Assembly (NCBI GenBank): GCA_025453925.1
Contig: JALOPK010000146.1
Location: 1-15,406 of the forward strand
Reading direction: 5' to 3'
Source of the DNA: Candidatus Eiseniibacteriota bacterium
GTDB taxonomy: Bacteria > JAFGKV01
DNA: 15,406 nucleotides
Position numbers and translations under genes: made by a program. The notes below the pieces were generated by a model. The model was not told the DNA's origin and did not search any database. It was given only the letters and a program-made list of their open reading frames with translations. Shown here in pieces: positions 12,546 to 14,414 of the stretch (within the stretch, counting starts at the first letter, position 1; each line of letters starts with the position of its first letter).

Positions 12546-14414
12546 CTAGGTTGCGGTGTCCAGCGTTCCGGCGGGATCGTGACTCGCCAGATACCGATAG
12601 AGCGTTGCCCGACCAATGCCGAGAAGCCTGGCCGCCTGGAGCTTGTTCCCGCCCGCCCGCCTGATGGCCTCCGCGACCCGCTCGGGAGTCAAGGCCGCCG
12701 CACCTCCCCGGGGGGGTTCTTCTGGCGGCGGCACCTCTTCCGCTTCGAGTGAGTCGGCTGTCTCGTTGTCGAAGGCGCTCACCCGCACAGGGGTCTGCCC
12801 GCTTATCTCGGGTGGAAGGTGCTCAGGGCCTATCTCCTCCCCGGAGCAATGGACCGAGGCGTATTGGAGGGCATTGATGAGTTCGCGGATGTTGCCCGGC
12901 CACGGATGGGCGCTGAGACGGGCCATGGCGGTGGGACTGACCTTGTGGATCGCCGCGCCGGTATCCTTGCGGATCTGCGCCAGCACGTGATCCACGAGAC
13001 CGGGGAGATCCGCAGCCCTCTCACGGAGCGGGGGGAGCCCCAGTGGCACCACGGCCAAACGATAGAAGAGATCCTCCCGGAAAGCGCCTTCCTTCACCAG
13101 GACGCGAAGGTCGCGATTGGTAGAACTGACCACTCTGACATCGACCATGATCGAGCGCTCGCCGCCAACGGGCTCGAATCGTTTCTCCTGCAGCACTCGC
13201 AGGAGCTTGACCTGGAAGGCCGGAGAGAGTTCCCCGACTTCGTCGAGCAGCAGTGTGCCGCCGTCGGCCAGTTCGAAGCGTCCCTTCTTGTCTCTTATGG
13301 CGCCCGTGAACGCGCCCTTGACGTGGCCGAAGAGCTCGCTCTCCAGGATGTGTTCCGGCAGGGCGCCGCAGTTGATGGGAACGAAGGGTCCCCCCCTGCG
13401 GCGGCTCTCAAGGTGAATCGCCTGGGCGGCCAGTTCCTTTCCCGTTCCGCTCTCCCCCGTGATAAGCACGGGATAGTCGGAGCGAGCGACCTGTCTGATA
13501 AGCGCGATGGCCTCGGCCAGCGCAGGAGAACGGCCGACCATACCGTGGAAGTGGCGACTCCGTGGCGCGGGGGGTGCGCCATTCGTGTCATGCAGAACTG
13601 CCACAGTGGCACGGGACATCATACCCAGTCCCTGGAGCGAAGACACCTCAACCCTGAAGGCCCGGGAGTGGGCCGGGGAACCCAGCCCGACGATGTGCTC
13701 ATGACCCCGAAGAGGGCACCCCTCCCCGTCGGCGAACAGGCAGGCACTTCCGCACAGCCCATGCGGAGGGAATACCTGTCGGCAATCGCGGCCAAGAACC
13801 TCGGTGCGTGTGCGCCCGGTGATCCGCTCGGCTCTGGAATTGAAGAGGAAGAACCTGGAACTGGCATCCATGGCGGTGAGCCCCAGGGCCGACCGGTCAA
13901 TCCGGTGCATCGCGCGCCGTTTGCGCTCCCGAAGCGCATCGAGGTAGCCGTGTCGCATAAGAGTGTCGAGTCGTCCGATGATCTCGTCGCGGACGAGGCG
14001 GAACCGCCCGATTCCGTCGCGGGAGGGCCCCGGGCTCACCTCCGCGATGTTCCAATGGACATGCAGCGGACTCACCAGGCCGACGATGGTGGTGGCGGGG
14101 TCTTCCGGAGGTGTGCCATTGGTGGTGGCAGCCGGCAGTGAACACCGCTCCCGTGCCCCGTCACCGAAGGTCACGATCAGGTCGAACGCGAGAACCGACA
14201 GCCCCGCCAGAGATCGAGGCTGGTGATTCGTGGCGTCGATGGCCAGTTCGCGCAAGACCTGTAGGGCAAGCGGGTGAACAGGCCCGGGATCGATTCCCGC
14301 ACTGACCGCCTCGACCGCCCCGTGGGTTCTTGCCGTGAGCACACGTTCCGCGATGACGCTCCTGACGGCATGACGCTCACCAACAAACAGCACTCGAAGC
14401 TTCTCGTCGTCCAT
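12546..14414 (-). CDS. Sigma-54 activator with dead ArsC/LMW-phosphatase-like domain, PAS, AAA+ and Fis HTH
   Basis: A 622-residue NtrC-family enhancer-binding protein. Residues 6-152 follow the LMW phosphatase/ArsC fold: beta1 RVLFVG, then R18-S19, SAGIDPGPVHPLALQVLRE, FDLIVTFGDGARERC, HW and RFRLVRDEI. In the C-X5-R-S loop the nucleophilic Cys is G12; R18 and S19 remain. Against ArsC, the second redox Cys is G84 and the third is C91. PAS spans about 165-280, with C211, C221, C225 and C233. The AAA+ domain (290-515) has Walker A GESGTGKE (320-327), GAFTGA (367-372), Walker B LLLDE (388-392) and an arginine-finger region FREDLFYRL. The Fis-type HTH is at about 575-610. The start is the ATG at 14414 with GGAGGT upstream; a 120-codon extension is rejected. 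It likely controls the downstream nifU-fprA genes and possibly fumarase. Confidence 0.9.
   Translation of the reverse strand: MDDEKLRVLFVGERHAVRSVIAERVLTARTHGAVEAVSAGIDPGPVHPLALQVLRELAIDATNHQPRSLAGLSVLAFDLIVTFGDGARERCSLPAATTNGTPPEDPATTIVGLVSPLHVHWNIAEVSPGPSRDGIGRFRLVRDEIIGRLDTLMRHGYLDALRERKRRAMHRIDRSALGLTAMDASSRFFLFNSRAERITGRTRTEVLGRDCRQVFPPHGLCGSACLFADGEGCPLRGHEHIVGLGSPAHSRAFRVEVSSLQGLGMMSRATVAVLHDTNGAPPAPRSRHFHGMVGRSPALAEAIALIRQVARSDYPVLITGESGTGKELAAQAIHLESRRRGGPFVPINCGALPEHILESELFGHVKGAFTGAIRDKKGRFELADGGTLLLDEVGELSPAFQVKLLRVLQEKRFEPVGGERSIMVDVRVVSSTNRDLRVLVKEGAFREDLFYRLAVVPLGLPPLRERAADLPGLVDHVLAQIRKDTGAAIHKVSPTAMARLSAHPWPGNIRELINALQYASVHCSGEEIGPEHLPPEISGQTPVRVSAFDNETADSLEAEEVPPPEEPPRGGAAALTPERVAEAIRRAGGNKLQAARLLGIGRATLYRYLASHDPAGTLDTAT

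Follow-up and report, generated by a model that had tools for sequence, protein, structure and literature searches.

Activators of sigma-54-dependent transcription mostly receive their sensor inputs through receiver, GAF, PAS, ACT or V4R domains. The window described here, a stretch of 15,406 nucleotides from a Candidatus Eiseniibacteriota bacterium, encodes an activator which begins with a domain of the arsenate reductase (ArsC)/low-molecular-weight phosphatase (LMWPc) fold, and which a first-pass annotation had taken to carry a catalytically dead enzyme turned ligand sensor or dimerisation module. What such a domain contributes to a sigma-54 motor, and which genes that motor might control, are the questions that this locus raises. 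The activator and its relevant parts lie as follows.

12549..14414, minus strand: sigma-54 activator, ArsC/LMWPc - PAS - AAA+ - Fis HTH, 622 aa; stop codon at 12546-12548
13953..14399, minus strand: pseudo-ArsC domain, about residues 6-154 (Pfam, PDB sequence search, AlphaFold2 model, Foldseek)
14358..14381, minus strand: degenerate catalytic loop GERHAVRS, with G12 in place of Cys and R18 kept
13548..13898, minus strand: PAS domain with Cys cluster C211, C221, C225 (family-invariant) and C233

The activator opens with an ATG at 14414 (N-terminus MDDEKLRV in translation), and GCGGAGG 5' of this start is a plausible ribosome site. Pfam matches comprise LMWPc, a weak PAS_9, Sigma54_activat (233 bits), AAA_lid_14 and HTH_8, the last marking a C-terminal Fis-type HTH (32.8 bits; cut-off 22), and both the Walker A motif (GESGTGKE) and the GAFTGA loop read as intact in the translation. 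The PAS_9 match falls short of its cut-off (22.4 against 27), but both the family profile and the fold lend the PAS assignment good support. A Pfam search of the activator returned no match to a GAF domain, and the protein scored below the cut-offs of the NCBIfam models for NorR (318 against 476) and for the NifA equivalog (361.8 against 528.85). Divergent from the activator, a fumarase-like gene (14623-15406, plus strand) is apparently frameshifted, its N-terminal part (14623-14925) lying in another frame than the rest, whether through sequencing error or as a pseudogene.

The fold that the first-pass annotation had assigned to the N-terminus was upheld by domain search, by comparison with solved structures and by modelling. 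The LMWPc match spans residues 10-91 and scores 34 bits (E 3.6e-8), where the cut-off for the domain alone is 23.2. The best solved-structure relative of the domain alone in a phmmer search is 8p5n (E 4.3e-10); with the family profile as query, solved structures 8p5n (E 7.5e-32) and B. subtilis ArsC 1jl3 (E 2.3e-31) are recovered. An AlphaFold2 model of residues 1-289, built from 26 window and family sequences (pLDDT 81.8, pTM 0.79), retrieved the ArsC structures 8p5n, 8p6m, 1lk0, 1jf8 and 1jl3 as its top Foldseek matches, with TM-scores on the target of 0.80-0.86 for the best seven, and PAS domains lower in the ranking.

The active site within this fold is degenerate. Where arsenate reductases carry C-x5-R-S/T, the translation reads G12-ERHAV-R18-S19, exactly as first noted, and alignment to the intact free-standing ArsC of two sister genomes (L006, L007) places G12 at the nucleophile Cys, G84 at the second redox Cys and C91 at the third, the only member of the redox triad that is left. 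This copy likewise lacks the general-acid Asp, its DP motif having become E125-V126. The window domain thus has its fold in common with the thioredoxin/mycoredoxin-coupled enzymes (8p5n, D. indicus ArsC2; 1jl3, B. subtilis; 1jf8, pI258) and keeps their loop Arg and third Cys, but lacks the nucleophile, the second redox Cys and the general acid, whereas intact members of its own family keep the active-site residues; it differs further in being fused to PAS-sigma54-HTH, outside any ars operon. Translation and alignment bear out the initial proposal that this sigma-54 activator has an input domain of ArsC fold whose catalytic residues are lost, and we regard both this loss and the architecture as practically certain.

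The LMWPc-PAS-sigma54 layout is a real conserved family across many bacterial phyla. All three genomes of the window's phylum in the collection encode the protein; they represent two genera, with N-terminal identities of 58% and 35%, and in the congener (G001) the protein is split over two contig ends and was joined by their shared overlap. A scan of 84,980 species genomes yielded about 30 further members, including those in Kiritimatiellae, Planctomycetota, Calditrichaeota, Acidobacteria, Zixiibacteriota, Myxococcales, Desulfovirgula, Ammonifex, Electryonea and Deltaproteobacteria, and the window protein has in common with them its layout, a single clade and the PAS Cys cluster. Viral contigs scanned with the N-terminal 262 aa contained no relatives. 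Long LMWPc frames of other genomes, considered as candidate relatives, were set aside when read by eye: an ArsC-Acr3-like transporter (L021), an ArsC-type domain fused to what reads as an ArsA-like ATPase in duplicate (L041:2454-4652, from an unrelated genome), an ArsC-universal-stress-like protein (L044), and a stand-alone-like ArsC whose 5' open frame is long (L043). In the open-access literature we found no paper describing an LMWPc or ArsC input on sigma-54 activators, and the main text of the D. vulgaris sigma-54 regulome paper makes no mention of arsenate, phosphatase, rubrerythrin or rubredoxin. The architecture may nonetheless be listed in automatic domain databases.

Catalytic loops vary widely among these proteins. 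The Cys is lost in all three genomes of the window's lineage, where the loop reads GERIAARS in the congener and DDTHSCRV in the second genus (G002), and Arg18 is kept in all three though most loop positions differ. Intact loops occur on the same layout in other phyla (CTGNSCRS in L012 and L065, CSANACRS in L049), and in L011, also of another phylum, Cys and Arg are both lost. The loop could be read in 36 members, the window protein among them: 12 retain both residues, two the Cys without the Arg, eight the Arg without the Cys, and 14 neither. On a tree of the PAS-AAA-HTH part, rooted on five related activators that have no ArsC domain, the ArsC-type family stands apart from these five (support 100), and the window protein groups with its two relatives from the same phylum (support 99) within an eight-member clade (100). 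L078 and L084, both with complete loops, fall in the same clade; among homologues of this layout, the Cys is not always lost, nor the Arg always kept. By parsimony, Cys presence changes at least seven times on the tree and the Arg at least eight; parsimony alone gives no direction, but loss is the natural one, since free ArsC enzymes carry the complete site. Together with the loss in all three lineage genomes, these changes argue that the dead site is, judging by the tree, a recurrent outcome and not a private mutation of the window copy. The proviso that intact relatives would reduce this copy to a simple mutation was half right: such relatives exist, yet the loss is common to three genomes of two genera.

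On another explanation, a PAS-type activator first acquired the ArsC domain as a sensor of thiol redox state, through the Cys triad of thioredoxin-coupled ArsC, and the domain persists in window-like lineages as a functionless or purely structural relic. The Cys triad seems to be kept as a unit, in that the second Cys is present in 13 of 14 members that keep the first and in 4 of 22 that have lost it (Fisher 1.5e-5), although counting co-loss over phylogenetically independent pairs gives about 3 to 0, which cannot reach significance. The loops themselves run from intact sites, through those without the Cys, to those with neither Cys nor Arg, and related activators (L091 and others) manage without an ArsC domain. 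Retention of the domain after loss of its active site nevertheless suggests some role, and we consider the relic explanation unlikely, albeit worth keeping in view.

The first-pass annotation had proposed that the dead domain is itself the sensor, with phosphate, arsenate or sulfate, bound via the retained Arg and loop backbone, controlling the motor. The constancy of Arg18 in the window lineage is consistent with this, as are the Cys-lost, Arg-kept loops of L067, L074, L081, L082 and L093. Across the family, however, the Arg is lost from 14 of the 22 Cys-less members and from the two Cys-keepers mentioned above, and retention of the Arg is, on these alignments, not the family rule; moreover, the loop Ser has become Val in G002, arsenic genes are absent nearby, and the adjoining operon concerns Fe-S and O2/NO stress. 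The contention that anion binding was kept after catalysis was lost could not be sustained as stated, and we rate oxyanion sensing as improbable.

We lean, if only modestly, towards reading the whole protein as a NorR-like controller of Fe-S repair and of O2/NO/peroxide defence, with a PAS Cys sensor and an ArsC pseudoenzyme. The motif C-x8/9-C-x3-C occurs in the PAS domain of every family member and of the related ArsC-less activators. A fourth Cys lies 3 or 7-8 residues further on in 40 of 48 sequences, the remaining eight having no obvious one, and the window spacing is C-x9-C-x3-C-x7-C. In the histidine kinase NreB, a PAS domain with four Cys holds an O2-labile [4Fe-4S] (PMC4601167); the putative cluster in the window has four Cys too (C211, C221, C225, C233), a likeness in number only. 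Such a four-Cys pattern is as expected for a metal or cluster site, binding of which would be plausible here by analogy, and the PAS Cys cluster is, by a slight preference, our likely sensor. The less than universal fourth Cys, and a spacing matched to no proven cluster-binding PAS, count against the NorR-like reading. The best solved PAS relative in the family-profile search is DosP, for which reason heme in the PAS domain was also considered. LOV proteins also appear among the solved PAS relatives, in both that search and Foldseek, and the sequence GRDCxxVF around the first invariant Cys (C211 and its equivalents) resembles GRNCRFLQ, the motif in which LOV domains have their photoactive Cys. 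PAS-sigma54 activators of Desulfobacterota (L091, L101, L109 and others), which served as outgroup for the tree, have C-x8-C-x3-C in common with the family but lack the ArsC domain; some are accompanied by the same small downstream protein that is described below.

A candidate target lies directly 3' of the activator and on its strand.

12518..12533, minus strand: -24/-12 sigma-54 promoter-like site CGGCATGGGCCTTGCT, 12 nt after the activator stop codon
11474..12325, minus strand: nifU (NifU_N, BFD-like [2Fe-2S], NifU); GTG start at 12325 likely, by comparison with L146
10290..11477, minus strand: nifS-type cysteine desulfurase (Aminotran_5, 291 bits)
10069..10230, minus strand: rubredoxin, 53 aa (Rubredoxin, 87 bits)
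9189..9683, minus strand: ferritin (Ferritin, 148 bits)
8681..9175, minus strand: rubrerythrin-like protein (Rubrerythrin, 30.5 bits; cut-off 22.8)
7461..8684, minus strand: flavodiiron protein (ODP beta-lactamase fold and flavodoxin)

This order is largely syntenic with that in G002 (activator, small protein, nifU, nifS, rubrerythrin, flavodiiron), and in G001 the activator is followed by nifU and nifS before the contig ends. The identical 16-mer CGGCATGGGCCTTGCT stands 18 nt after the stop codon in G001 (L146:1364), where the surrounding intergenic DNA differs, and a variant, TGGCACATCCTATGCA, stands 16 nt after it in G002 (L145:2704). More widely, 10 of 35 family loci have such a promoter-like site in the 250 nt that follow the activator, where base-shuffled sequences give a mean of 0.24, and that in L099 is a full consensus. 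A generic consensus scan of the window allowing two mismatches gave two matches, against 2.4 expected by chance, and the case for a promoter is therefore made by conservation and position only. RpoN was found in both sister genomes; a search of the window's own genome, an 82% complete MAG, did not find it, which counts against the NorR-like reading.

Oxidative-stress genes, counted as rubrerythrin, ferritin, flavodiiron or peroxiredoxin, occur in 6 of 8 loci of the window's clade, the other two (L078, L146) being short contigs, compared with 5 of 48 loci of related ArsC-less activators (Fisher 3e-4). Among the other family members the count is 4 of 27 (Fisher 0.003). Both values overstate independence, as the rows are related. 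The link to oxidative stress is strong only within the window's clade, a further point against the NorR-like reading. In a mostly intact-loop clade (L070, L072, L073, L075, L076, L077, L088), a different conserved cluster lies downstream of the activator, and comprises a macro-domain protein, a Pfam-less protein and an HdrC-like Fer4/CCG protein, with an additional receiver domain in L070. A conserved small protein of about 65-85 aa, with the core D.SCG.LYG.LRD.AYKLR and no Pfam match in the three examples tested, is encoded in 17 of 35 ArsC-type loci, mostly directly downstream of the activator, and in 9 of 48 ArsC-less loci (for example L070:7935-8150, L065:8142-8399, L084:7910-8164 and L145:2779-2979). 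A tblastn search did not find it in the window; as a candidate, it could be either a partner of these activators or their target. Elsewhere in the window, an intergenic sequence is repeated at about 1150-1700 and 2890-3200, giving translated stretches such as PSASPRLCGIPCP in several ORFs.

An arsenic-responsive regulator of an ars operon is scarcely credible here, as only the ancestry of the fold from ArsC speaks for it, the catalytic residues are gone, and no arsR or acr3 relatives were found in any family locus, even beside intact-loop members. Their absence is counted in favour of the NorR-like reading, as are the oxidative-stress genes of the window clade, the domains and fold, the synteny, the conservation of the promoter-like site, RpoN in the sister genomes and the invariance of the PAS Cys. 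The best pointers to function among these features are the PAS Cys cluster, with its invariance, and the operon of Fe-S and oxidative-stress genes that follows a conserved sigma-54 promoter-like site; the first-pass annotation had mentioned neither. Control of the downstream operon by the activator is probable; we infer the target operon, the signal, cluster binding by the PAS Cys and the direction of control alike. In NorR, the AAA+ motor is off until NO binds the sensor domain, and the activator then drives norVW (PMC4601167). NorR, which serves the norVW flavorubredoxin, and the window activator are both one-component sigma-54 proteins linked to a flavodiiron protein, and de-repression logic is likely in common, but NorR senses through a GAF domain and non-heme iron, whereas the window activator has an ArsC fold and a Cys-cluster PAS.

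On the NorR-like reading, the activator would act as a one-component sigma-54 protein at the head of nifU-nifS-rubredoxin-ferritin-rubrerythrin-flavodiiron, and would most likely drive this operon from the -24/-12 promoter just 3' of its own stop codon. The N-terminal ArsC-PAS module would restrain the AAA+ motor until a redox or NO/O2 signal arrives, for which the PAS Cys cluster, perhaps a site for Fe-S or another metal, is the most likely reader. The motor would then be freed, and proteins for Fe-S repair, iron storage and the removal of O2, peroxide and NO would be made. Within this brake, the pseudo-ArsC domain probably serves structure or dimerisation, or else binds a small ligand in an accessory role. 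Where relatives have a complete catalytic site, their ArsC Cys triad may provide an additional thiol-redox input, which would be gone in the window lineage. Taken to its full extent, this would describe a recruited ArsC redox input that recurrently lost catalysis, joined to a PAS sensor of Fe-S or NO/O2 type, and in the window lineage controlling both the biogenesis of Fe-S clusters and anaerobic defence against O2 and NO, much as a NorR equipped with unrelated sensor domains would; we advance this fuller account tentatively, as a possibility on the doubtful side. Complete and dead versions of the ArsC domain on one chassis nonetheless form a natural series for the question of how an enzyme becomes a sensor, and the family offers a candidate means by which Fe-S repair and O2/NO defence may be controlled in poorly known phyla.
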